Source of the DNA: Shimia sp. R9_2
GTDB taxonomy: Bacteria > Pseudomonadota > Alphaproteobacteria > Rhodobacterales > Rhodobacteraceae
Reading direction: 5' to 3'
Assembly: GCF_017743735.1 (NCBI RefSeq)
Contig: NZ_JAGHRO010000002.1
Location: forward strand, 496,001-560,000
Length of the DNA stretch: 64,000 nucleotides
Part shown: positions 3,335 through 16,964 of the stretch, piece after piece
How the letters are laid out: each line of letters begins with the position of its first letter
Numbering within the stretch: the stretch's first letter is position 1
Program-made: the position numbers and the translations under genes
The notes under the pieces: generated by a model
Told to the model about the DNA's origin: nothing
What the model saw: only the letters and a program-made list of their open reading frames with translations
Database searches by the model: none

Positions 3335-5314
3335 TCAGAATTGCTTCGCGAAAGACAACAAGGTGAGGTCTCCCGGGTTCCACTCCAAGGCGCGGTCCAG
3401 CGTGGATTTGGCCGCCGCGCGTCCCTGCAGCTCAGCGGTCAAACGCACCAAAGTCTGCCACGCCTGAATGTTCTGCGGATTGATCCGCACCGCTTCGGTC
3501 AATGCCCCCGCGGCAGACCGCATGTCCCCCGCAACCATCGCGTATCCGGCCATTTGCAAATGCGCCTCTGCAAAATCCATCTGATTGCGGATCATGGCGC
3601 CAAAGGTTTGGAATGCTTGGCGCATATGGCTCCGCAGGCTGTCTGGCAAGCGATGTGCAGGCTGGCTCATGATTGCGCGTGCCGCAGCCACCCGCACCGC
3701 CTGCACCTCATCCTGCAAGCCTTGGATCAGATACGGCGCCGCCGCCACCGCCGCGCGGGATTTCAGCGCCTCAAGCGCGCCGATGCGCACCTGCGGGTCA
3801 TCATCCCCCATAAAGGCGGCAATATCCTGCAGCTTCAGGCTTGTGGCTCCAGGTCCCAAAAGCCAAAGCGCCGTTGCGCGCACCAGATCAGCCTGCGTCG
3901 CATCCTGCGCCAAGGCCAAGAGATCATCGGCCGCCGCGCGCGGATCGGCCCGTCCGCTGGCCAGAATGTCACCGTAATGCACCTCACGCCAGCGGCCTTC
4001 CGGGAACCACGCTTCGATCTGCGCCGCTGCCCACGCGGGCTCCTGTTCTTCATGGCATCTTGTGCAGACATCCGGCGTCCCGAGGCGTGCGGACACATCC
4101 GGGCGCGGTACGCGGAAGTTATGATCCCGCCGCCAGTCATTGCCCATATAAACCTGATCCATCATGTGGCAATTGACACATTGCGCGCCTGCGCTGCCTT
4201 CCGGATGGTGGGTGTGCTCTGCTGTGTCATAGGCCGCCAAACGCAGGCTTGGAAAATCCGGATTTCCTGCCTCGGAATGGCACTGCGTACACACCGCGTC
4301 CCCCTCTGCGATCACCTCTGCATCATGGGGCGCATGACAATTCGCGCAGGTCACCCCCTTCTGATGCATCTTAGACTGCAAGAAGGAGCCGTAGACGTAG
4401 ACTTCATCCTGAATTTGGCCGTCTGCGTGATACAATCCGGGCCGCAACAGCGCGAGATTGTAGGCATCGGCAAAAGCTGTGCCCGGCAATGGATTGCCGT
4501 CGCCAAAGGCTTCGCGACGTGAGTGGCACCCGGCGCATTGCTCCATCGCCTGCTCCGGCACGGCCATATCTGCGGTAAAGCCCCAATCCGTCAAAGCCAC
4601 CGCGTAGTCCTGCGTCGGCTGGTTTGCCACAAGATCCAGATGCGCTTGGCCGGGGCCATGACAAGCCTCACAGCCGACACCAATCTCGATTTGCGTGGAC
4701 GCATAGCGTTTGCGCTGAAAGTCGTAGTTCTTTTCAAATCCGGTGGCGTGGCATTCCGCGCAGCGTGCGTTCCAGTTCTTGTAAGCCCCGGACCAGTGAT
4801 ACGCGTCTTTGGGGGGCAAATCCTGATCGGGGTAAAGGTGGTACCAGCGTTGCACCTCGACATCCCAAACCACGTCAAAACTCTGCAGCCGCCCGCGACC
4901 GGTCTCGAGGATCAGATGCTGCAATGGCTCCGTGCCGCCCACCGAATGTAGCGTGTAGACGGTTTCCACCCCGTCTTTCTCAACCACCGTGACAACCCGC
5001 GCGCCGTCTTTGGTGTCAAACTGGGCGCGCATTCCGTCATGTTCAAACACTTCGCCCTGAAAGGCCCCGATCAACACCTCATCGCTCGGCATCCGCCAGG
5101 CTTGCGCATGGTGAGACTTGCGCCAGGCCTCAGCCTCATCCTCATGACAGGAAACACAACGCTGCGAGCCGACATAGGCTGGTGCATAGGCACCCTCCGC
5201 CGCAGAGCTATCCCCCTGCTGCGCAAGCCCCGCAGAGCTCAGAACGAGGTAAGCCACACAGATGGCGGCCATATCGGTGCACAAGGCGCGCAGCGCCCGG
5301 AGCCAATAGATCAT
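3335..5314 (-). CDS. Octaheme c-type cytochrome with C-terminal HEAT and TPR repeats
   Basis: Secreted multiheme electron-transfer or redox protein, 659 residues. A signal peptide lies at about residues 1-32 (cleavage near LAQ). Eight CXXCH sites start near residues 53, 185, 215, 260, 323, 342, 379 and 417. The tail holds HEAT-like helices (about 455-550) and a TPR-like pair (about 565-655). The spacing resembles the octaheme families related to hydroxylamine oxidoreductase and tetrathionate reductase, but no substrate can be assigned and the 'cytochrome c552 nitrite reductase' label often given to such proteins is not supported. It is the last gene of the sulfatase/MoxR-VWA run, 10 bp after batD, so it is probably assembled with or by the VWA proteins in the periplasm. 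Confidence 0.85.
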   Translation of the reverse strand: MIYWLRALRALCTDMAAICVAYLVLSSAGLAQQGDSSAAEGAYAPAYVGSQRCVSCHEDEAEAWRKSHHAQAWRMPSDEVLIGAFQGEVFEHDGMRAQFDTKDGARVVTVVEKDGVETVYTLHSVGGTEPLQHLILETGRGRLQSFDVVWDVEVQRWYHLYPDQDLPPKDAYHWSGAYKNWNARCAECHATGFEKNYDFQRKRYASTQIEIGVGCEACHGPGQAHLDLVANQPTQDYAVALTDWGFTADMAVPEQAMEQCAGCHSRREAFGDGNPLPGTAFADAYNLALLRPGLYHADGQIQDEVYVYGSFLQSKMHQKGVTCANCHAPHDAEVIAEGDAVCTQCHSEAGNPDFPSLRLAAYDTAEHTHHPEGSAGAQCVNCHMMDQVYMGNDWRRDHNFRVPRPDVSARLGTPDVCTRCHEEQEPAWAAAQIEAWFPEGRWREVHYGDILASGRADPRAAADDLLALAQDATQADLVRATALWLLGPGATSLKLQDIAAFMGDDDPQVRIGALEALKSRAAVAAAPYLIQGLQDEVQAVRVAAARAIMSQPAHRLPDSLRSHMRQAFQTFGAMIRNQMDFAEAHLQMAGYAMVAGDMRSAAGALTEAVRINPQNIQAWQTLVRLTAELQGRAAAKSTLDRALEWNPGDLTLLSFAKQF

Positions 5315-5324
5315 AGAGTTCTCT

Positions 5325-6608
5325 TTACTTCCTGGCTGCAGACACCGGATTAAGTGCTGCCAAAGCTTGGTACTTTAAAGGACGTTGCCCATGCAACGCG
5401 CGTCTCAGTTGTTTCAGGTCTGTCTCCAAGGCGCGCCACTGCGGCCCCAGCTCAGCGGAGGCCTGCTGACCAAAGAACCCGCTGCCCAAACCCAAAAACG
5501 CCGTCTCCACCGGGCTGTCCAGCTCATGTGCGCCCGTACCTGCCCGCACCCGCCAGATGTCAAAGGCCCGACGAGCAGCGCCAAGATCTCGGGCATGCAC
5601 CGCGAAGAGCAACCGCTTCCAAGCATAGGCTTCAGAGACCTGCCAGCGGGCAATCAACCCCGCGCGCTTTGCCGCAATCCAGCCGCGCGAAAACCATAGC
5701 ATCGCGAGAACCACCATGAGGAGACCTGCCCCCACCAACACGCGCGGGTCAACGTTGGCGCGTGCATCTTCGCCAAGGACATTCACACTTCCTGCAGGCG
5801 CATCTGCCTGCACGTTAACAGCTGGCACCGTTGCTTCCTCGATGGTGTTGGATGCCAGATTATACCACCGAATAGTGATCTCAGGCAGCATCCCATCGAC
5901 CGCGTTCTCCGCAACATAGACGGTCTTCTCACTGCGCGTTCCTGAGAGGATGCCGCGATCTTCTTTGTCTTCCACCACAGGATTCTCCGGATAGGCCCGC
6001 AGCCCGTCTGGTGCTTCTTGCGACGTCAGTGGCGGCACAAAAATCGGAGACACACCCTTGATTTTGGCCGTCAGAACACGACTAAAGCTCGCCCCAGCGT
6101 CAAGGCCTTCGGTTTCCCCATAAATGGTTTGGGTGAGGCTCAGCTCCTGAGCTGCAATAAACGGATCAAGCCCTTCGGCCCCTTCAGGCAAGATGCCCAC
6201 GACCGAGATTTCCGGCACCGGCAGCACTTCCTGCAACAGCTCGCCGCCAGTCTCATCGCGGTAGGTCACCTGCACCGTGCCCGGCGCAATCCGGAAACTG
6301 CCCGGCACCATGGGAGTGATCTGATAGCGCCGCGAAATGCCGGACCAGGTCTCTCCGTTCACCGTTTTGCTGGTGGGAGAGCTCGCTTTCTCCGGCAGCC
6401 GCACCATCAAGTTCGGGCTTTCCAAATCCGGCCAGACAGGAGGCTCCGGCATGAAAGTCGGCACCAGAACGGTCAGCCTGAGGGTCAGCGGTTGTCCGGG
6501 GATCGCTTCTGTGTCGTCAAACACCACATCGAGCTGAGGTTTGTCCTGCGTCAGTCCTGCCCCTGCCAAAGCCACCCAAATCCCAATAACGCATCCCCAA
6601 AACCGCAC
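5325..6608 (-). CDS. BatD-like periplasmic/membrane protein
   Basis: BatD (aerotolerance-operon) homologue, 427 residues. I place the start at the GTG at 6608, five bases after the preceding stop, with GGAG ten bases upstream. This start gives an N-terminal signal peptide (WGCVIGIWVALAGAGL) directly, while the longer reading frame adds an unlikely tail inside the upstream gene. Mature beta-rich, immunoglobulin-like domains are followed by one membrane helix (about residues 305-325, LVGAGLLMVVLAMLWF) and a cytosolic helical tail. BatD works with the neighbouring VWA proteins, which lie in the same operon. Its biochemical role is unknown. Confidence 0.8.
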   Translation of the reverse strand: MRFWGCVIGIWVALAGAGLTQDKPQLDVVFDDTEAIPGQPLTLRLTVLVPTFMPEPPVWPDLESPNLMVRLPEKASSPTSKTVNGETWSGISRRYQITPMVPGSFRIAPGTVQVTYRDETGGELLQEVLPVPEISVVGILPEGAEGLDPFIAAQELSLTQTIYGETEGLDAGASFSRVLTAKIKGVSPIFVPPLTSQEAPDGLRAYPENPVVEDKEDRGILSGTRSEKTVYVAENAVDGMLPEITIRWYNLASNTIEEATVPAVNVQADAPAGSVNVLGEDARANVDPRVLVGAGLLMVVLAMLWFSRGWIAAKRAGLIARWQVSEAYAWKRLLFAVHARDLGAARRAFDIWRVRAGTGAHELDSPVETAFLGLGSGFFGQQASAELGPQWRALETDLKQLRRALHGQRPLKYQALAALNPVSAARK

Positions 6609-6613
6609 TGTTT

Positions 6614-8194
6614 CTAGTCTCCAGTTCGTTGCGCAGCTTCGAGACGAAACCGCTGTCGTAGAAAGTCCTCGGTGCGCGTGTCCACCGTGCGCATCCATTG
6701 CTCGGCTGACAGATGCCCGCCTGCGGCCTCCTCTTCTGAGGCCTCAATCTGGGTCTCAGCGCCCTGCCCGCTTTCGTTGTCAAAGACCACATCATCTGCG
6801 CCGATGCCGGACTCCTCACCGGTGTCCGATTGCGCCTGTGCGGTTTCCACATAGGCCACGATGTCCTTGGCGATCGGCAAGTTTTGCTGTGCGCCCGCGT
6901 GGTCCGGATCAATCTGCAAAGCCCGCTCAAAGGCACGCACCCCATCGCGGTATCCCCGCGACTTAAGCCGCGCCATGCCTTCGATGAAAGCGGCATCCGC
7001 CGTCTCAATTCGGGCCATCTCCTGCGCAGCGGTTTCATATTGCCCGCCGCGATAGAGTGCCACTCCGCGCATGTAGGGATCTGCAAACCGCGATGCGGCC
7101 GTTTCATAGTCCTTGCGCTGATATGCGATCCAGCCCTGCTGATCCGCTGTTAAGAACCAGTCACGCCAGCCTTCCGCCTGCGCCTCTGTTGGCATAACAA
7201 ACCACAAGGCCAGCACCATCTGTGCCGCCCAGCGCACGGCCATCCCCCGCCGGAACCAGACCAGAAGCAACAGCGCTGCGGGCCAGGCAAGCCAAGGTCC
7301 GCGATCTTCCCAAGGCTGCGCAGCATTGCTTAGCTGCGCGCGCTGGTAGGCAGACGCCAGAGAGCGCTCAATCGCCGCCACATCGCGCCCGTCTGGGGTC
7401 ACTCCTTGGGCAAAACTGCCGTCCGGCCCGACCGGCAAACTGCTTCCATCTGGGAGCAGATAGAGAAAACTCATTGACGCTACCGTTGCGCCCGCATCCG
7501 CATCCGCCTGCTCTGCCGCACCACCCGCGCGCCATGCCTCCTCAAGGCTGGCGGCATCTGCTGCGGACAGCGCATCCAACAGGAACACAACCCCGCCAGC
7601 CGCGGCCTCCCGCGCCAAAAGCTTCTGCGCCACGTCAAAGCCCGCCAGCACATCCTGCCCTTCAATTGGCATCACATCCGGTCGCAGCCCTTCAAGATAT
7701 GGCTGCATCACACCGGGGTCCTCGCTCATGGGTACCACCACATGGGCGCTGCCACCAAAGGCCACCAAAGCCGTGCGTGCGCCGGCCCGCAGCTCCAGCA
7801 AATCCCGTGCTTTCTGTTTGGCACGCTCAAGCCGGTCAGGTGCCACATCCGTCGCTTCCATTGACGGTGACACTTGCAAGGCAATCACCAACGGAGCGGT
7901 CTGCGCGGCAAATGGCGCTGGAGCGCGTGTCCAGCTTGGCCCGGCCGCCGCCGTGATCAACAGCAGCATCACCAGTGCAATCACATCAATGGGCTGCACT
8001 CCTCGACGCGTTGTGCCGGGCACAGTCAGCGCTTGCGCCAAATGGGGCGCTATCCAGCCCGCATCATTTGCATTTGTCCCTTGCCTGCGCCGCATCTGAC
8101 ACCAGATCCACAGAACAGGCACAGCCGCCACAAACACCCAGCCGCGCAGAAAATGAAACGCCTCTAGATAGACCCAGAACACCGATCCACTCAT
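6614..8194 (-). CDS. BatB/BatC-type protein: membrane-anchored VWA domain plus TPR
   Basis: Protein of 526 residues. N-terminal membrane helices (about 17-32 and 68-85) are followed by a von Willebrand factor A domain (about 100-280), another membrane pair (about 305-345) and TPR-like repeats (about 370-460), then an acidic tail. The metal-ion (MIDAS) motif that should read DxSxS reads Q-V-S-P-S at 107-111, so the first metal ligand is missing, unlike the intact site in the next VWA gene. The start overlaps the end of the batA-like gene by 4 bases. The architecture equals a fusion of BatB and BatC. It probably scaffolds complexes for the MoxR ATPase. Confidence 0.82.
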   Translation of the reverse strand: MSGSVFWVYLEAFHFLRGWVFVAAVPVLWIWCQMRRRQGTNANDAGWIAPHLAQALTVPGTTRRGVQPIDVIALVMLLLITAAAGPSWTRAPAPFAAQTAPLVIALQVSPSMEATDVAPDRLERAKQKARDLLELRAGARTALVAFGGSAHVVVPMSEDPGVMQPYLEGLRPDVMPIEGQDVLAGFDVAQKLLAREAAAGGVVFLLDALSAADAASLEEAWRAGGAAEQADADAGATVASMSFLYLLPDGSSLPVGPDGSFAQGVTPDGRDVAAIERSLASAYQRAQLSNAAQPWEDRGPWLAWPAALLLLVWFRRGMAVRWAAQMVLALWFVMPTEAQAEGWRDWFLTADQQGWIAYQRKDYETAASRFADPYMRGVALYRGGQYETAAQEMARIETADAAFIEGMARLKSRGYRDGVRAFERALQIDPDHAGAQQNLPIAKDIVAYVETAQAQSDTGEESGIGADDVVFDNESGQGAETQIEASEEEAAGGHLSAEQWMRTVDTRTEDFLRQRFRLEAAQRTGD

Positions 8195-9174
8195 GCCGCA
8201 TCCTTTCGCGGCATCCGCATCGCTGCCGACATCAACAACGCCAGCCCCACGCAGACCGCAGCCAGCAGCAGGTAATGTGCCAGAGGCTCCTTTTGCCGCC
8301 AGCTGATCCTGTCTTCTTCACGAGGCGTGAGCGCGTCAATTTCCGCATAAATCTGATCAAGCGCTTCAGCATCCGAAGCAAAAAACGCCTGTCCGCCAGT
8401 GCGCTCCGCCAGATCGGAGAGCTGGCCCATATCGAGTTGATCCTCACCGCTGGCGTCGGGATCTCCCACACCGATGGCGAACATGCGCACGCCGTTCTCC
8501 TTGGCGATCTCCGCTGCGTTGACCGGGCTCATCCGGCTTGCGGTGTCATTCCCGTCAGACAAGAGAATAAGCAGGCGTTCCTCAATTTCGCTGGCCTCAA
8601 AGGTGCGTATCGCCAGCCCGATGGCATCGCCCAGCGCCGTGTGAGGCCCTGCCATCCCCACCTCAGTTTGCGCCAGCATTGCAGAAACAGTCGCCAAATC
8701 TTCGGTCAAAGGTGCCTGCACATAGGCGCGCGAGCCAAACACGATCAACGCCACGCGGTCGCCCTCACGCCCTTCCAAAAACGCGCCAACCACATCCTGC
8801 ACTGCAGCAAACCTTTGCTGCGCCGCACCTTCTTCGCCGGGAAAATCAACCGTGTCCATAGAGCCGGAGATATCAATGGCCAGGATCACATCGCGCGTGG
8901 CTTTGGTGATTTCCTGCGGCGGGCCAAGCCGCATCGGTCCGCTCAACGCCCCTACGACGAGGGTCCACATCACAAAGCCCGCAACCAAGGCCCAACGCTT
9001 ATGGGCCACAACCATGGCCCCGTCACGCAGGGACACACCTGCCGCCCGCGCCAAAGCCTCAAAGAAAGGCAGGCGCACAGCAGACTCCCGCTGATGATAC
9101 GGCGCAGCCAGCCAACGCACCAATAGCGGCAATGGCCAAAGCAGAAGGGCAAATGGATGGGCCAGCTCAAACAT
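8191..9174 (-). CDS. BatA-type VWA domain protein
   Basis: Protein of 327 residues with two N-terminal hydrophobic segments, a VWA domain and a C-terminal membrane helix (HYLLLAAVCVGLALLMSA). The MIDAS is intact: D-I-S-G-S at about 101-105. I chose the ATG at 9174, overlapping the previous gene's stop by 8 bases, because the protein then begins with the typical BatA N-terminus (MFELAHPFALLLWPLPLL); the longer frame only adds residues encoded inside the upstream gene. BatA proteins pair with BatB/BatD and a MoxR AAA+ ATPase, all present here in the usual order. Confidence 0.85.
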   Translation of the reverse strand: MFELAHPFALLLWPLPLLVRWLAAPYHQRESAVRLPFFEALARAAGVSLRDGAMVVAHKRWALVAGFVMWTLVVGALSGPMRLGPPQEITKATRDVILAIDISGSMDTVDFPGEEGAAQQRFAAVQDVVGAFLEGREGDRVALIVFGSRAYVQAPLTEDLATVSAMLAQTEVGMAGPHTALGDAIGLAIRTFEASEIEERLLILLSDGNDTASRMSPVNAAEIAKENGVRMFAIGVGDPDASGEDQLDMGQLSDLAERTGGQAFFASDAEALDQIYAEIDALTPREEDRISWRQKEPLAHYLLLAAVCVGLALLMSAAMRMPRKDAA

Positions 9175-9685
9175 GGTCCCCTCCCAACGCCTCTGCTGTG
9201 GGGTGGTTCCGTATCCAGTGCCGCGCCAAGGCCTGTAGATCAGGACCTGCGGCCACCGGCTCGGGACGATATGCGGCAGCCGCCAAAATACGCCCGGCCC
9301 CTTCGGCAAACCCGTCTTCGGCAGCACCCCCGGTTTTGTCCAGAAAGCGCAGCCAGTCATCCCCGCTCAGGGCCGCCACAGGTGCGCGCCCATAGGCGGT
9401 CAGCGCAGCACGTTTCAAAATCGTTGAGATCGCTGCCGCGTCAGTGGCCGCAGCGTCCAAAGCTGCGAGCGCCTCACGTCGGTAAGCATTGGCCTGATAG
9501 CGTCGCCAGACCCGCCAGCCCCACCCCAGCAAGGCAAGCCCCAACGCGCCTGCCAGCACGGCCCAACCGACCGTTTGCGGGATCATCGAAACCGGGGCAG
9601 GCTCAGGCACCTCCGCCAACTGATTGATCAATCCCACAAGGCCGTCCGCCTGCACCGGCGTGTTGGCCTCCGCGTTCTCGCTCAT
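9167..9685 (-). CDS. DUF4381 domain-containing membrane protein
   Basis: Protein of 172 residues with one clear membrane helix (about 41-58) followed by a positively charged, helical cytosolic domain. This is the DUF4381 family, almost always found between the DUF58 and batA genes of MoxR-VWA clusters, as here. It overlaps the DUF58 gene by 4 bases and batA by 8. Its specific function is unknown; its place in the cluster implies a structural role in the VWA complex. Confidence 0.82.
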   Translation of the reverse strand: MSENAEANTPVQADGLVGLINQLAEVPEPAPVSMIPQTVGWAVLAGALGLALLGWGWRVWRRYQANAYRREALAALDAAATDAAAISTILKRAALTAYGRAPVAALSGDDWLRFLDKTGGAAEDGFAEGAGRILAAAAYRPEPVAAGPDLQALARHWIRNHPTAEALGGDHV

Positions 9686-10665
9686 GGCCGCGTGCCTCCC
9701 ATGAGGTAAACGATCTGAGGCAGGGTTTCATGTTCCGTCGTCACCGGAAGCACAGAAAGCTTCATCTTGCGCTGCCAACTTTCCACAAGCTCTGTCCGGT
9801 CCGCCGCCACAGACAGGACACCGGCGCGCACATCCGCAGCCGCCATATCCAATCGCGCCTGCTGCTGCCCGTCTGTGCCGGTCACGGCGCCCTGCTCGGG
9901 CAGCTTATCGGCGGTCGGGTCTGTCACCAGCGCCAGAACAACATCATTGTGCCGTGCAATTGCGCCAAGGTGACGCTCGGTCTCGGCATCCGCCGCATCA
10001 AAATCGCTGATCACAATCACCAGATGATCGCGTGTTGCAAGCTTTGCGGCGGCCCGCAGAACAGCGTTCATGGCCATGGGCTGCACTTTGGCCGCATCCG
10101 CGCGCAAACGCTGGTTGGCATGTGTGAGCACGCTTAAAAACCGGGTGAGCGCCGACGCTCCTCGTCCCGGGCGCAGCTCTTCAACACATTGATCGCCAAA
10201 CACAATGCCGCCCAGCCGGTCTCCTTGCGAGATCACGCGATGGGCCACAATCGCCGCGGTCTCCGCCGCGGTGACGGATTTGGTGTTCCGCACCGTGCCA
10301 AAAAACATCGACATGCGCTGATCCACCACAATCAGCGTCGGACGGTCGCGCTCCTCATTGTAAACCCGCACATAGGGTGCGCCAGCCCGCGCTGTGACCT
10401 TCCAGTCAATGGCACGCACATCATCACCGGGCAGGTAGTTGCGCAATTCCTCAAAATCGAGCCCCCTCCCCCGGATGCGCGCCCGATGCCGCCCCTGCAG
10501 GGCTGAGCGCGCAGGCTGTCTGGGCAGGAAAGAAATCGCCCGTGCGGCTTCGCGAAAGCCCTGCAAATGTGGCAAGGTCACATGCACCCGCAAATCCCAG
10601 CTGTCGGTTGATGGAGCAGCTGCGGGTGCAAGCCCCATACGTGATATGCTGGCGCGGCGGTTCAT
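9682..10665 (-). CDS. DUF58 domain protein (MoxR-associated)
   Basis: Protein of 327 residues. It carries the DUF58 signature region G-D-D-V-R-x-I-D-W (in an arrangement followed by A-R-x-G-x-P-Y-V-R), then a VWA-like fold (TLIVVDQRMSMFFG). DUF58 proteins bind MoxR ATPases and the VWA partners in operons like this. I start it at the ATG at 10665, 16 bases after the moxR stop; the longer frame begins inside moxR and has no family support. The VWA-like motif D-Q-R-M-S departs from DxSxS, which is usual for DUF58. Confidence 0.88.
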   Translation of the reverse strand: MNRRASISRMGLAPAAAPSTDSWDLRVHVTLPHLQGFREAARAISFLPRQPARSALQGRHRARIRGRGLDFEELRNYLPGDDVRAIDWKVTARAGAPYVRVYNEERDRPTLIVVDQRMSMFFGTVRNTKSVTAAETAAIVAHRVISQGDRLGGIVFGDQCVEELRPGRGASALTRFLSVLTHANQRLRADAAKVQPMAMNAVLRAAAKLATRDHLVIVISDFDAADAETERHLGAIARHNDVVLALVTDPTADKLPEQGAVTGTDGQQQARLDMAAADVRAGVLSVAADRTELVESWQRKMKLSVLPVTTEHETLPQIVYLMGGTRP

Positions 10666-10681
10666 TGGCGGTGCGCCCCCG

Positions 10682-11683
10682 TCATGGCAAAGCCACCACA
10701 GACAGCACCCGTGCACTCACCTGATCGGCGGAAATCCCGTTGCCCTGCGCCTCATAGCTCAGCGCCAAACGGTGGCGCAGCACATCCGGGGCAATCGCAC
10801 GCACATCTTCGGGATCAACATAGTCCCGACCTGCGAGCCAGGCATGCACCCGCGCGCAGCGGTCCAGCGCCAGCGAGGCCCGCGGGCTCGCACCGATGTC
10901 GATCCACTTCGCGAGGTCGCCATCAAAATCTGCAGGCATCCGTGTGGCCTGCACGATGGTCGCCATATAGGTTTCCATGGCCTCGGCACAGTGCAGCGTT
11001 GCAATCTCTCGGCGTGCGGCAAAGACCACCTCTTGCGACATCGGCTCGATCGCAGTTGCGGTCTTTTCTGCCTGAGTTTCAGCCAATGCCGCCTGCTCTT
11101 CGGCACGCACAAGGCGGATCACCTGCACCTCATCCTCCAGCGGAGGGTAATCAATGCGCACATGCATCAGGAAACGGTCCATCTGCGCTTCCGGGAGCGG
11201 ATATGTCCCCTCCTGCTCCACAGGGTTCTGGGTCGCCAGAACCATGAACAGCGGTGCCATCTTATGGCTTGTGCCCGCAACCGTCACCTGTCGCTCTTCC
11301 ATGGCTTCCAAGAGCGCGGCCTGCACCTTTGCCGGGGCGCGGTTGATCTCATCCGCCAGCACCAGATTGGCAAAAATCGGCCCGGGCTGGAATTTGAACT
11401 GCCCACCGCCTTCGCTTTGGAAATACATCTCTGTGCCGGTCACATCCGCGGGCAACAGGTCTGGCGTGAACTGGATACGTGCATAGTCGCATTCCAAGTT
11501 CTTCGCCAAAGCCTTGACCGCGCGCGTTTTTGCGAGCCCCGGCAGGCCTTCCAGCAACAGGTTGCCGTTGGCCAGAAGGCCAATCAACAACCGGTCAATC
11601 ACATCACGCTGCCCGATGATGCTTTCACCCATCTGGGCGGCAAGGCGCTCAATCTGCTCTCTTGGGGTCATGGGGTTTCTCAC
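10682..11683 (-). CDS. MoxR family AAA+ ATPase
   Basis: Cytosolic AAA+ ATPase of 333 residues. Walker A is GLPGLAKT (about residues 46-53) and Walker B is LVLADEIN (about 108-115), with a sensor-1 type ATQNP segment. MoxR ATPases act as chaperones for metal-cofactor insertion or complex assembly together with VWA proteins. It heads the chaperone block DUF58-DUF4381-BatA-BatB-BatD and its ATG overlaps the HAD-hydrolase stop by 4 bases, so all are probably translated from one mRNA. Target unknown; the sulfatase, HAD protein and octaheme cytochrome of the same run are the candidates. Confidence 0.93.
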   Translation of the reverse strand: MRNPMTPREQIERLAAQMGESIIGQRDVIDRLLIGLLANGNLLLEGLPGLAKTRAVKALAKNLECDYARIQFTPDLLPADVTGTEMYFQSEGGGQFKFQPGPIFANLVLADEINRAPAKVQAALLEAMEERQVTVAGTSHKMAPLFMVLATQNPVEQEGTYPLPEAQMDRFLMHVRIDYPPLEDEVQVIRLVRAEEQAALAETQAEKTATAIEPMSQEVVFAARREIATLHCAEAMETYMATIVQATRMPADFDGDLAKWIDIGASPRASLALDRCARVHAWLAGRDYVDPEDVRAIAPDVLRHRLALSYEAQGNGISADQVSARVLSVVALP

Positions 11684-12675
11684 TCAGCCGGGGTTGCTGT
11701 GAAAATTCTGGACCAGTCCTGCGCCATGTCCACGATCAGCCAGCCGCGCTCTGGGCCTTCATCCAGCCCACGGTTCAGAACCCCGATGTGCCCCTCACGG
11801 TCATAAGCCCATTCACGCTCCGCATCGGTGTGATGCACATAAAGCCCCAGCCGCGCGCCCTCGCCCGCCGTGGTGAACTCCAGCATCTCAAAATCGCCGT
11901 CCGAATTGCCCCCTGCGAGAATGGGCTGCTTGCCAATATGATGGCTGATGCCGACCGGCTTGCCTGCCTTGTCATCATTGAAGAACAGATCCGCGCCCTT
12001 CATGATCAGTGGGACGCCATCAACAACCTCGTATGTCGAGGTGATGGAGCTGCCGATAACCTGCTGTGGAGGGATGCCATAAGCGTCTTCGGCAAAGACC
12101 CGCATGAACTGGATACCGCCGCCGGACACAATATATGTGGCAAACCCCTCATCGCGCAGATAGCGCAGCAGCTCCACCATCGGCTGATAGGTCATCTGAT
12201 CATAGCGCAAGCCGGTCTTTGGATGGCGCGCCTCTTCCAACCAGGCAGCCACATCCTGCTTGAACTGATAAAGCGACACTTCGGAATGAGACGCAGCCAG
12301 CACCTCCAAAAGGCCTTCTTTGCCCGTGGCCGCCAGCGCCTTATAATCACCTGCCGCCGCCGCACGCAGCGCATCAGTCGTGAGAATAGAGGGGTCTTGC
12401 TCTGCAAGCTTGGCCACCTGATCAACAGCAAAGATCAGCTGGAAATAAACCGGCTGTTCCGCCCAAAGCGTGCCGTCATTGTCAAAGGTCGCAATGCGGT
12501 CTGCCGGCGTGACATACTCTTCGGAAGCCGGATCCGTCACGGCCTCAACAAAGGAAATAATGCGCGCCTTGGCGTCGGTGTCGTTCCACGACGGCAAAGG
12601 ATCTGCCAGCGCCATTCCAGAGGTTACTCCAACGCCACTCACAACAAAGGCGGCCATATGCGCAAGCTGTCGCAT
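11680..12675 (-). CDS. Periplasmic HAD-superfamily hydrolase/phosphatase
   Basis: Protein of 331 residues with a signal peptide (about 1-25, VSGVGVTSGMALA). The HAD nucleophile motif is D-N-D-G-T at about 65-69, and later motifs (YIVSGGGIQF; GNSDGDFEM) complete the active site, so it should hydrolyse a phosphoester in the periplasm. Secreted HAD enzymes with this DNDGT form are often annotated as phosphoserine phosphatase-like; the substrate is not evident. It lies between the sulfatase and moxR, overlapping moxR by 4 bases. A sulfatase/phosphatase pair suggests ester scavenging from organic matter. Confidence 0.85.
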   Translation of the reverse strand: MRQLAHMAAFVVSGVGVTSGMALADPLPSWNDTDAKARIISFVEAVTDPASEEYVTPADRIATFDNDGTLWAEQPVYFQLIFAVDQVAKLAEQDPSILTTDALRAAAAGDYKALAATGKEGLLEVLAASHSEVSLYQFKQDVAAWLEEARHPKTGLRYDQMTYQPMVELLRYLRDEGFATYIVSGGGIQFMRVFAEDAYGIPPQQVIGSSITSTYEVVDGVPLIMKGADLFFNDDKAGKPVGISHHIGKQPILAGGNSDGDFEMLEFTTAGEGARLGLYVHHTDAEREWAYDREGHIGVLNRGLDEGPERGWLIVDMAQDWSRIFTATPAE

Positions 12676-12715
12676 TACCCAATCACTCCAACGAAAAATT
12701 AGTGATAATCATGGT

Positions 12716-12739
12716 GCCACCCCGCAAGGGCGGGATGGC
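12716..12739 (-). terminator. Intercistronic stem-loop between sulfatase and HAD genes
   Basis: Inverted repeat GCCACCCCGC / GCGGGATGGC with one mismatch and a 4-base loop, 41 bases before the HAD start. It has no U-run on the minus-strand side, so it is more likely an attenuating or mRNA-protecting hairpin than a full terminator. A smaller stem, CTGATC/GATCAG (12753-12771), overlaps the sulfatase stop. Confidence 0.4.
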
Positions 12740-12767
12740 GGTTTGTCAAACTCTGATCACCTCAGGA

Positions 12768-14357
12768 TCAGTCGCCGATTGGCGAGGACATTTTTTCCAT
12801 CACCTGATCCAGACTGAAGCTCGCCGCTTTCTGACGTGGCGGGAACTCCTGGAAGGTGGCCAGGAACTGAGCCACATACTGCTGCGCAGGCACGAGGAAA
12901 TACGCACGGTCCAGCAGCCAGTCATAGTAGGTGTTGGAAGTCTGATACGCGCGCTCATATGGATCACGACGCAGGTTCATGATCAGCGGCAGACGCAGCA
13001 CAGTGAAAGGTTCGATCCATGCACGCAGGGTCTTGTACTCTTTCTGCTCCATGAAGATGAACTTCCAGTCCTGATAGCGCAGCGCGGTTAGGTCACCATC
13101 GTCAGAGAAATAGAAGATCTCGTTACGTGGGCTTTCGGTGGTTTCACCGGTCAGCATCGGCAGGATGTTGTAGCCATCCAGATGCACCTTGTACTCACGA
13201 CCAATCGCCTGAACGCCGCCGGCTTTCAGCTCTTCCTTGATGTCCGGACGACCAGCGGCCGCCAGCAGGGTTGGGAACCAGTCCATGTGGTGCACGATTT
13301 CGTTGCTCACAGAACCCGCTTCGATTTTGCCAGGCCAACGCACCATGGATGGCACACGCCAGCCACCTTCATAGTTGGTGTTTTTCTCACCAAAGAACGG
13401 AGTGGAGGCTGCATCCGGCCAGGTGTTGTAGTGTGGGCCGTTGTCGGTGGAGTAATGCACGATGGTGTTGTCTGCGATGCCCAGCTCGTCCAGCAGGTCC
13501 AGCAGTTGGCCAACATGCATGTCGTGTTCGATCATGCCAGCAGAATATTCATCCAGCGTTTTACCGGTGATCTGGTTGGCTTTCTCGCGCATGGTGTCCT
13601 GCACGTGTGTGCGGAAGTGCATACGTGTACCGTTCCACCAAACGTAGAAAGGTTTGCCCTGATCATTGGCGCGCTTGATGAAGTCGATGGCAGCCGCCAG
13701 CGTTTCCTCATCAACGGTTTCCATACGCTTCTTGGTCAGCGGGCCGGTGTCTTCAATTTCGCCATCCGCAGAGGACTTGATCACACCACGCGGGCCAAAG
13801 GCTTCGCGGAAAGTGCGGCCGTCCGGCAGCACGGTGTCGCCCGGATAGTCGACGTTCTCAGGCTCTTCTTCGGCATTCAGGTGGTAGAGGTTGCCAAAAA
13901 ACTCATCAAACCCGTGGTTTGTCGGCAGGTGCTCATCCTTGTCGCCAAGGTGGTTCTTGCCGAACTGACCGGTCAGGTAACCCTCAGATTTCAGCAGGCC
14001 CGCAATGGTTGGATCTTCTTCCTGCATGCCAAGCTCGGCGCCCGGCAGGCCAACTTTGGACAAACCGGTGCGGAACACGGATTGGCCCATGATGTAGGAC
14101 GCACGACCGGCGGTACAGGATTGCTCGCCATAGTAGTCTGTGAAGATCATACCTTCGTTCGCCACACGGTCGATGTTGGGCGTGCGGTAGCCCATCATGC
14201 CCATGGTATAGGCGGAGATATTGGACTGACCGATATCGTCACCCCAGATGACCAGAATATTAGGTTTATCTTGCGCTGATACAGCTGTTGCAACTGTTGT
14301 TAGAACTGCTGCGACCGTCGATAGCGCCCTGACGGTCTTAAGCGGCGATAATGGCAT
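12768..14357 (-). CDS. Arylsulfatase (formylglycine-dependent, secreted)
   Basis: Type I sulfatase of 529 residues that hydrolyses sulfate esters in the periplasm or outside. A signal peptide spans about residues 1-28 (cleavage after VSA). Metal aspartates are D40/D41 (WGDDIG), and the formylglycine motif C-T-A-G-R is at 81-85, matching C-x-A/P-x-R. Further active-site features are GKNHLGD and STDNGPH. I start at the ATG at 14357, which gives a clean signal peptide; the longer frame has no such start. Codon use leans to CGT, GGT, GTT and AAC more than in the GGC/CGC-rich neighbours, suggesting high expression. No formylglycine-generating enzyme is in the window. It is the first gene of the MoxR-VWA-octaheme run. 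Confidence 0.92.
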   Translation of the reverse strand: MPLSPLKTVRALSTVAAVLTTVATAVSAQDKPNILVIWGDDIGQSNISAYTMGMMGYRTPNIDRVANEGMIFTDYYGEQSCTAGRASYIMGQSVFRTGLSKVGLPGAELGMQEEDPTIAGLLKSEGYLTGQFGKNHLGDKDEHLPTNHGFDEFFGNLYHLNAEEEPENVDYPGDTVLPDGRTFREAFGPRGVIKSSADGEIEDTGPLTKKRMETVDEETLAAAIDFIKRANDQGKPFYVWWNGTRMHFRTHVQDTMREKANQITGKTLDEYSAGMIEHDMHVGQLLDLLDELGIADNTIVHYSTDNGPHYNTWPDAASTPFFGEKNTNYEGGWRVPSMVRWPGKIEAGSVSNEIVHHMDWFPTLLAAAGRPDIKEELKAGGVQAIGREYKVHLDGYNILPMLTGETTESPRNEIFYFSDDGDLTALRYQDWKFIFMEQKEYKTLRAWIEPFTVLRLPLIMNLRRDPYERAYQTSNTYYDWLLDRAYFLVPAQQYVAQFLATFQEFPPRQKAASFSLDQVMEKMSSPIGD

Positions 14358-15404: not shown

Positions 15405-15695
15405 GACGCCCTCTTTAGACGACGCGCCAGGCTTTGCCCAGAGACAGCCCTCAGCAATGCCTCAAAGCCAGCTGTCGCAAGGCAGGCGATCATAAAAGCG
15501 GCCAGCAATCACTCTGACAACCAGCCAAATTCCTTCAATTTGAGAGAACTTCCGCTCTCAGCATTTTCTTGCACACAAAACACCGAAATTTGGCAAAAAC
15601 ACACTGAAATATAAGCGCTTTTTTGCTTGAAGTTGCGCCAATGCATCTCTGCCAGTCACCTCTCGCCAGAACCATGCAAAGAGAAAGGACTGCAC
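15405..15695. promoter_or_regulatory. Divergent intergenic region between rlmJ and the CAP-RTX gene
   Basis: About 290 bases, AT-richer on the right half. It holds a small inverted repeat GAGAG-N8-CTCTC near 15540-15560 and TTTGGC ... TATAAG (about 15592-15618) that could be a promoter but with a spacer of only 15 bases. Nothing firmer is visible. The Shine-Dalgarno for the rightward gene is GAGAAAGGA at 15681-15689. Confidence 0.35.
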
Positions 15696-16964
15696 ATGGG
15701 ACAGGCAAGTAGCTTTGAGCGACAAATGCTCGAACTGATCAACGAGGAACGCGCAAAAGCCGGATTGAATCCGTTGCGTCTGAACACGCTACTAAATGAA
15801 TCCAGCGAAGATCATACGAAATGGATGATGGAGACAGGTACGTTTTCGCACGCAGGTGAAAATGGGTCCAACGTCACGGATCGCATCGATGCAACAGGAT
15901 ACCCTCTGGAAGGCACTTGGGGGACAGCAGAGAACATCGGCTGGCAATCCGAACGCGGCGCCCCAAGTATCGAGGATGATGTGCGGCAGGTTCACGAGGG
16001 GCTGATGAACAGCCCGGGGCACCGCGCAAATATTATGAATCCGGACTTCACCGAAATCGGCATCGGCATCGAACGCGGTAATTTTCGCGGCTATGACGCT
16101 GTGGTCGTGACACAGAATTTTGCCCGCACGGACGGCGACACATCGGGATCCGTCGAGCCAGAGACCACTCCCGCACCCGAACCTACCCCAGAACCAACTC
16201 CTGCGCCTAAACCGGAACCCACACCCGAGCCCACGCCAGAACCTTCTCCGGAACCAGAACCGCAGCCGGAGCCCACTCCTGAACCTGTGCCGGAACCGGA
16301 ACCAACGCCTGAGCCAGCGCCCGAACCTGAACCCGCGCCTGAGCCAGCTCCGGAACCTGCGCCGGAACCTGCGCCACAGCCGACACCAGAGCCGCAGCCT
16401 GAACCTGTGCCAGAACCGGAACCAATTCCAGAGCCTGCACCGGCAGTCGCCGTATCCGGCTTCGCCTATGGCACAAGAGGTGACGACACCCTCACAACAA
16501 CCGGGTCTTGGAACATGGTCTTCACCGGTCGCGGCGATGACACGGTAATCGGGCAGGATGGCTTTGACTACCTCAACGGCGGTAAAGGCGATGACATGCT
16601 GCTTGGCGGCGGCGGGAATGACTTCCTGATGGGCGGTCGCGGCGATGACAATCTGGATGGCGGATCCGGTCGCGACTATCTGGTTGGCGGTGCTGGTGAT
16701 GACGTGATGACAGGAGGCACAGGTGCCGATGTCTTCATATTTGCCAAAGGCGACGACACCATCAGCGACTTCACCGTCGGTGAAGACACGCTCGTGCTCA
16801 GCGCCAGTCTCTGGAGAAGCGGAGAAAACCCACTGTCAGCCTTCGCAAACAACGTCACAATCGAAGACGGTAACGCTGTGATTGACTTTGGCGCAGGCAA
16901 CACGCTGACCCTAACCGGCGTCACCGACACCCCCGATCTGGATGTCTACGGCATGTTCTGCTGA
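15696..16964 (+). CDS. CAP/SCP domain protein with Pro-Glu linker and RTX calcium-binding repeats
   Basis: Predicted type I-secreted protein of 422 residues without a signal peptide. Order: a CAP (PR-1/SCP-like) domain, about residues 8-145, with SHAGENG, ENIGW and [19 protein letters not shown] motifs; a low-complexity linker of about 95 residues built from P-E-P/P-x-P repeats; then about six RTX nonapeptides (GGxGxDxLx) and a C-terminal GADVFIF...GDDTISDF block typical of T1SS substrates. I start at the ATG at 15696, preceded by GAGAAAGGA and giving a CAP N-terminus; the frame upstream is not family-like. The CAP domain may act on peptides, cell wall or lipids; the function is not known. 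No T1SS genes are in the window. Confidence 0.85.
16158..16442 (+). repeat. Tandem proline-glutamate codon repeat (PEPx linker)
   Basis: About 285 bases of degenerate hexa/dodecameric repeats encoding P-E-P-T, P-E-P-A and P-E-P-V units (residues about 155-249 of the CAP-RTX protein). Each unit varies at the third codon position (GAA/GAG, CCT/CCA/CCG), so the repeat is selected at protein level. Such rigid linkers in other secreted proteins span cell wall or separate domains. Length probably varies between strains. Confidence 0.9.

Follow-up and report, generated by a model that had tools for sequence, protein, structure and literature searches.

Nine adjacent genes at the Shimia locus

The stretch of DNA analysed here, referred to throughout as the window, comprises 64,000 nucleotides (nt) of Shimia sp. 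R9_2, a member of the Rhodobacteraceae (assembly GCF_017743735.1, contig NZ_JAGHRO010000002.1, positions 496,001 to 560,000 of the forward strand). Between positions 3335 and 14357, its minus strand carries nine adjacent genes that run from an exported cysteine (Cys)-type sulfatase and a secreted-looking hydrolase of the HAD superfamily, through a block of MoxR/Bat genes, to a c-type cytochrome with eight haem-binding motifs, hereafter the octaheme protein (Table 1). The association of this cytochrome with sulfatases across genomes is strong, and the protein may be a so far undescribed factor that helps to activate secreted sulfatases. All nine genes were verified as present by open reading frame (ORF) reading, Pfam and a start-codon check. 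The compact layout described in a first-pass annotation of the sequence, with overlaps of 4–8 nt or gaps below 100 nt, was confirmed by ORF reading and Pfam: several junctions overlap by 4–8 nt, and gaps of 10, 16 and 92 nt separate BatD from octaheme, MoxR from DUF58 and sulfatase from HAD, respectively. The hairpin lying in the last of these gaps may uncouple or stabilise the transcript. Promoter and terminator consensus matches at the locus stay at chance level, and the nine-gene block is flanked by RlmJ upstream and a gene for an Mrp-type antiporter downstream.

Table 1. Features of the locus, in the direction of transcription (window positions)
Feature	Coordinates	Strand	Characteristics
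Exported Cys-type sulfatase	12768..14357	-	PF00884 4.9e-48; ATG at 14357; C-T-A-G-R; signal peptide
Intergenic stretch sulfatase-HAD	12676..12767	-	10-bp GC-rich hairpin, z -2.5 vs shuffles
HAD-superfamily hydrolase, secreted-looking	11680..12675	-	PF12710 1e-11; PDB 4ovy E 1.6e-100; DNDGT motif
MoxR-type AAA+ ATPase (AAA_3)	10682..11683 (GTG start) or ..11671 (ATG start)	-	PF07726 2.6e-62
DUF58 protein	9682..10665	-	PF01882 3.8e-40; ATG chosen within ORF 9682-10716
DUF4381 protein	9167..9685	-	PF14316 1.3e-33
VWA protein, BatA type	8191..9174	-	PF00092 7.3e-22; ATG chosen within ORF 8191-9360
VWA + TPR protein, BatB/BatC type	6614..8194	-	PF13519 1.1e-13
BatD-like protein	5325..6698	-	Whole ORF from first ATG, start provisional; named by position
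Octaheme c-type cytochrome	3335..5314	-	N-terminal signal, 8 CxxCH, HEAT then TPR; Pfam Cytochrome_C554 (PF13435 1.1e-12), HEAT, TPR

In terms of nomenclature, the window sulfatase is an S1 (Cys-type) enzyme that combines the PF00884 domain with the C-x-P/A-x-R motif; the latter reads C81-T-A-G-R and is without variation across 16 aligned sequences. The N-terminus of the HAD protein is likewise export-like. The MoxR/DUF58/DUF4381/BatA/BatB-C/BatD series that the annotation had placed between HAD and octaheme is borne out by Pfam, with BatD recognised by position. This row of MoxR, DUF58, two VWA proteins and BatD characterises a Bat system, in which the BatD assignment rests only on position: the protein is without any Pfam or NCBIfam match, and its homologues adjoin VWA genes in six other genomes of the host family (neighbour clustering, cluster c8). 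The BatA-type VWA protein matches the Leptospira BatA model at 8.5e-37, under the cut-off of that model. The Bat operons of Leptospira, Borrelia and Riemerella also contain consecutive genes of the MoxR, DUF58, VWA and BatD types; in comparison, the block described here is inserted between HAD and octaheme and is dispensable to the module that these genes form with the sulfatase.

The eight CxxCH motifs of the octaheme protein are present in 87 of 90 aligned homologues. Outside these motifs, six histidines are kept in at least 88 of the 90 homologues, and a further two are found in 84 and 77 of them, a pattern of conservation that may leave room for at least one haem without a conserved distal histidine. 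The AlphaFold2 model of the protein (pLDDT 91.7) finds its nearest fold in the Protein Data Bank (PDB) in OcwA (6i5b; Foldseek E 6e-11 and 9e-11, TM 0.40 and 0.52–0.54), and the only three PDB chains matching at E ≤0.001 are two of OcwA and one of an artificial repeat protein. The octaheme protein has the haem-domain fold and the Pfam Cytochrome_C554 domain in common with the OcwA, cytochrome c554 and NrfA/MccA group, the fold relating it to multihaem enzymes of the NrfA/HAO/ONR/MccA type; it differs from this group by an identity to OcwA of just 18–19%, by its HEAT/TPR tail and by its tie to sulfatases. The authors of the OcwA report relate that protein to NrfA, c554 and MccA and describe two open-site haems and a slow reduction of nitrite (PMC6703420). 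This kinship to catalytic multihaem enzymes with open-site haems is counted in favour of the activating role proposed below. It could also mean that the octaheme protein is an ordinary reductase of the NrfA/c554 type (acting on nitrite, hydroxylamine or sulfite) or an electron carrier, and that its joint travel with sulfatases reflects a diet of sulfated polymers; OcwA, its nearest fold, is reported to reduce both nitrite and hydroxylamine (PMC6703420). Such a role is very unlikely: the CxxCK motif typical of the catalytic haem of NrfA occurs in none of the 90 homologues, and the genomic linkage described below argues against it as well. A search of Pfam and NCBIfam at E 0.001 returned no match of the octaheme protein to MauG-type dihaem peroxidases.

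Co-occurrence and linkage with exported sulfatases

The host family was sampled with 61 genomes, one per genus; G-numbers denote genomes (G000 being that of the window) and L-numbers loci. The octaheme gene is found in 10 of the 61 genomes, and relatives of the window sulfatase at E 1e-60 in 11, namely the same 10 and G036. The HAD protein (E 1e-20) is present in eight genomes, every one an octaheme genome, and a BatB/C-type protein (E 1e-20) also in eight, of which seven are octaheme genomes and the last, G009, has a weak match. At this threshold the BatB/C protein is absent from G031, G034 and G043, which retain both octaheme and exported sulfatases. In the 20-kb neighbourhoods of the nine other octaheme genes of the family, the genes for sulfatase, HAD and MoxR/Bat mostly lie close by, in an order that varies and is often divergent. 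Two loci, L011 (G031) and L019 (G034), have no sulfatase, HAD or MoxR/Bat gene in this 20-kb neighbourhood; at L013 (G013), the octaheme gene is flanked by MoxR/Bat and by only a fragment of a sulfatase (9029-9503), intact exported sulfatases lying elsewhere in that genome. A Cys-type sulfatase lies within about 10 kb of octaheme in seven of the 10 genomes against the 0.4 that the number of sulfatases and the size of the genomes would predict, an enrichment of about 17-fold with a P value (1e-8) that, as for the other P value given for the family, is too small because the genomes, all from one family, are interdependent. Linkage of this degree at the gene level, extending to several sulfatase subfamilies, argues against an ordinary reductase that merely shares a diet with the sulfatases.

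Other genes recur in these neighbourhoods. A Crp/Fnr-type regulator lies near octaheme or sulfatase at L015 (5994-6662), L016 (11495-12163), L017 (8960-9667) and L027 (7249-7830), assigned by Pfam for the L016 copy and by clustering for those of the other three family genomes; redox or oxygen control is possible. The surroundings of the octaheme genes of L011, L012, L014 and L015 repeatedly include genes for an AI-2E-type permease, a BrkB-type membrane protein and a PLD-type protein, which adjoin ppx- and ftsJ-like genes.

The octaheme gene tracks a particular class of sulfatases, those that are exported. PF00884 matches (E 1e-8) were gathered from all 61 family genomes, their motif was located with a profile HMM built from relatives of the window sulfatase, and the Cys-type proteins (C-x-[PA]-x-R) were sorted by a simple home-made signal-peptide rule. 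Fragments (e.g., G007 C3:7097-8121 and C63, G013 C1:3254530, G045 C1:2328849) were left out, and rule-exported proteins of G012, G016 and G046 were dropped before the count because they are without the C-x-P/A-x-R motif. This rule classes 53 sulfatases as exported and the other 158 as non-exported. Of the 53, 50 belong to octaheme genomes, so that all 10 of these genomes have exported sulfatases, compared with three of the 51 others (naive P 3e-9); the non-exported sulfatases are spread over all genome groups. A sulfatase at L156 (G057) that looks exported by eye was missed by the rule and stands outside the 50 of 53. Tat-like signals are found in none of the 50 and in one exported sulfatase of the remaining genomes, that of G036 (L023), which is 64% identical to the window sulfatase and has an adjoining FGE gene and no octaheme.

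In a wider scan of genome contigs, the best 80 of 342 octaheme relatives were examined (best segments 32–80% identical), several of these loci ending at contig ends. In Shimia sp. R10_1 (L038) the nine-gene order is identical, the octaheme protein being 80% and the sulfatase 98% identical. A sulfatase with a [CS]-x-[PA]-x-R motif lies near octaheme in 38 of the 80 loci, and of the 44 genes of this kind the home-made rule assigns an export signal to 40; in a clustering of neighbours, sulfatase is the commonest family (37 loci). MoxR and BatD occur together in 15 of the 80 loci, three of them in Vibrionaceae, and HAD also in 15; 36 loci have none of sulfatase, MoxR/BatD and HAD. The octaheme-linked sulfatases belong to several subfamilies, some close to that of the window and others, in Roseomonas, Methyloligella, Zoogloea, Pseudomonas and elsewhere, just 23–35% identical to it. 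A role in one substrate-specific pathway was thus set aside as the principal explanation, and a common activation factor is the easier reading for a protein linked to several subfamilies of exported sulfatases.

The three Vibrionaceae (L101, L104, L116) share the gene order sulfatase, octaheme, MoxR to BatD. They also carry a second exported sulfatase on the opposite strand, which in two of them, if on the same contig, would lie about 15 kb from octaheme according to its coordinates, and anSME genes occur in these genomes as well.

Among the 42 loci where no sulfatase lies near octaheme, 12 isolates were picked by hand and their best PF00884 matches inspected. In 11 of them the genome encodes non-Tat exported Cys-type sulfatases at another site, recognised by the rule in 10 and by eye in Roseibium album; FGE or anSME is present as well in four of the 12. 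The proteins of L417 and L411, classed as 'cyto?' by the rule, look exported by eye and are not counted.

Plasmids carry the same association. The octaheme protein matches 146 plasmid records, of which five were examined. The full nine-gene order is present on a plasmid of Alloyangia pacifica; those of Rhodobacteraceae SC52 and Rhizobium leguminosarum have just sulfatase, HAD and octaheme, and tblastn recovers the same trio from plasmids of Sinorhizobium meliloti 1021 (pSymA, NC_003037.1; L398 7033-11839; octaheme match at 943887-945725 of the plasmid; sulfatase motif C-T-P-G-R) and S. terangae, in regions that carry no annotation. These trios have no MoxR/Bat gene within 10 kb, and the core is therefore the trio, with MoxR/Bat as an insert: the recurrent unit consists of an exported sulfatase, a secreted HAD protein and octaheme, joined frequently but optionally by MoxR/Bat. 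The occurrence of trio plasmids in soil rhizobia is a further point against the reductase alternative. A search of viral contigs with the octaheme protein returned no relative.

These distributions bear on what had been proposed for the locus. That sulfatase and octaheme belong together, beyond accidental neighbourhood, is upheld, as they co-occur and frequently lie close together, also where the genes are rearranged, divergent or carried on plasmids. Conservation of gene order outside close relatives was only half right: the order changes, and the association nonetheless reaches Vibrio, Rhizobium and Microbulbifer. The annotation had also cast MoxR-VWA as a possible chaperone of the sulfatase or the octaheme protein, which would make the nine genes a single maturation operon; MoxR and BatD near octaheme at 15 of the 80 loci, the three Vibrionaceae included, and the nine-gene order kept in Alloyangia agree with this. 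It is unlikely, however, since BatB/C was not found (E 1e-20) in G031, G034 and G043 despite their octaheme and exported sulfatases, the plasmid trios are without the block, and in G005 octaheme and the Bat block are on separate contigs. Since MoxR/Bat is dispensable to the module, the octaheme protein as a client of MoxR is kept as a rival only, and the data suggest that octaheme serves the sulfatase rather than MoxR serving either.

Known sulfatase maturases in octaheme genomes

Two systems are known to convert the active-site Cys of C-x-P/A-x-R sulfatases into formylglycine, FGE (SUMF1 family, PF03781) and the radical SAM protein anSME (TIGR03942). FGE was called from PF03781 together with the cysteine pair GGS..C....C..R, and anSME from TIGR03942 matches over the cut-off. 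The FGE check read one PF03781 locus per genome, in 30 family genomes and, for the further set described below, in 30 of its 36 positive genomes; matches left out of this reading include the single weak one of G035 (57.7 bits) and further ones of G003, G008, G013 and G017. Eight of the 10 family octaheme genomes show no intact Cys-pair FGE and no anSME over the cut-off. Three of the eight (G005, G031, G034) have no PF03781 match whatever, the matches read in G000, G043 and G057 are without the Cys pair, and G013 has an FGE fragment within a 134-residue frame. In the genome of the window, the sole PF03781 match at the E 0.001 threshold is without the pair, and there is no TIGR03942 match at E 1e-20; none of the nine locus proteins has a PF03781 domain or is a radical SAM protein (Pfam, NCBIfam). 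The further set comprises 50 octaheme genomes chosen by hand, corresponding to 50 of the 80 loci, and 32 of them have neither FGE nor anSME by the one-locus-per-genome check. In addition, none of the 39 family genomes classed as being without octaheme, Cys-pair FGE and anSME over the cut-off has an exported Cys-type sulfatase. The octaheme gene neither strictly replaces FGE and anSME nor accompanies them; it tracks export.

A candidate activation factor for exported sulfatases

Cys-type sulfatases require the formation of formylglycine for their activation. The favoured explanation, about as likely as not, is that the octaheme protein is a periplasmic activation factor of exported sulfatases, perhaps the "third" formylglycine system whose existence is suspected from work on E. 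coli (PMC6189696, PMC8379841). The sulfatase, with the active-site Cys of its C-T-A-G-R motif, would reach the periplasm via its Sec-type signal and meet there the octaheme protein, possibly through the C-terminal HEAT/TPR region of the latter, which would bring it to its active state. Most probably, the octaheme protein would oxidise the Cys to formylglycine or accept the electrons of that oxidation for transfer to the respiratory chain. A third, frequent partner would be the secreted HAD protein, with MoxR/Bat as an optional chaperone block aiding the assembly or loading of the complex. What the genomes themselves show is the set of genes, their co-occurrence, the ties to several sulfatase subfamilies and, for most octaheme genomes of the family, the lack of known maturases; the G036 sulfatase, with its adjoining FGE, its Tat-like signal and no octaheme, is counted in favour of the proposal, as are the 11 of 12 isolates with exported sulfatases at another site. 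Contact between the two proteins, formylglycine formation, the path of the electrons and the parts played by HAD and MoxR/Bat are deduced. The more specific proposal, that octaheme constitutes a third, haem-based formylglycine-generating system acting in the periplasm on the Cys of Sec-exported sulfatases, with the electrons going to respiration, is tentative and somewhat less probable than its general form.

Several observations weigh against an activating role. Ordinary c-type haems are weak oxidants for a C-H bond. Known maturases coexist with octaheme in G007 (FGE and anSME), in G038 (FGE) and in the further set, where 12 of the 50 genomes have a Cys-pair FGE and six others anSME over the cut-off; octaheme is therefore not a simple replacement of FGE or anSME, an explanation that these genomes weaken. 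Conversely, the three exported sulfatases found outside octaheme genomes, single genes in G020, G036 and G040, all have an FGE in their genome and that of G040 also an anSME. In terms of linkage, the intact sulfatases of G031, G034 and G013 are unlinked to octaheme, 42 of the 80 wider loci have no motif-bearing sulfatase nearby (several being cut by contig ends), and the interdependence of the family genomes has been mentioned. Endozoicomonas, the exception among the 12 isolates, encodes a Tat-type exported sulfatase at a distance of about 11 kb from anSME, and its four PF00884 matches include no Sec-type one. Lastly, of the 39 family genomes classed as being without octaheme, FGE and anSME, 32 encode cytosolic Cys-type sulfatases or phosphonate hydrolase-like proteins, as named from their motifs, in the absence of any known maturase. 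Absence of FGE and anSME is thus no proof that octaheme matures anything: either another route exists or these enzymes work unmodified.

The same 32 genomes favour a different role, in which the octaheme protein is a functional partner of exported sulfatases and not their maturase, performing a redox step in the breakdown of sulfated polymers or shielding the Cys or the aldehyde from oxidising conditions in the periplasm, with formylglycine being made earlier by a cytosolic route. The coexistence of FGE or anSME with octaheme in several genomes is in keeping with it, as is a Cys-converting activity of unassigned origin recorded in E. coli (PMC6189696, PMC8379841). This role is possible but doubtful, as octaheme tracks several subfamilies of exported sulfatases rather than one substrate pathway, and the 39 genomes without the three systems have no exported sulfatase at all.

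If the octaheme protein is indeed an activation factor, its proposed outcome is that of FGE and anSME, reached by different means. FGE is not known to be a haem protein and is defined by its own PF03781 domain, which octaheme is without. The iron-sulfur enzyme anSME acts by a two-electron oxidation. A parallel may be MauG, a periplasmic dihaem c-type cytochrome that is encoded near its client and oxidises residues of the latter to make the TTQ cofactor. Both are periplasmic multihaem c-type proteins encoded near a client, the octaheme protein differing by its eight haems, its c554/OcwA-like fold and its HEAT/TPR region; by analogy, MauG would provide a precedent for a haem protein making a cofactor within a periplasmic client.

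How sulfatases are activated in bacteria without FGE and anSME is a standing question, for which octaheme offers a candidate gene family that is present in Sinorhizobium meliloti 1021, a tractable laboratory model. If true, the proposal would add a haem route to protein-derived cofactors, explain the periplasmic sulfatases of marine and soil bacteria, free exported sulfatases from FGE and anSME, and help to produce active sulfatases as well as proteins tagged with formylglycine. No multihaem cytochrome coupled to secreted sulfatases came up in the searches of the open-access literature, as far as its available text extends and with subscription papers and preprints outside the scope; the coupling thus stands as a candidate undescribed link even if the proposed chemistry is wrong. 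Outside the nine genes, an ORF on the plus strand (15627-16964) encodes a protein that combines a CAP domain with RTX calcium-binding repeats and a long region rich in Pro and Glu.

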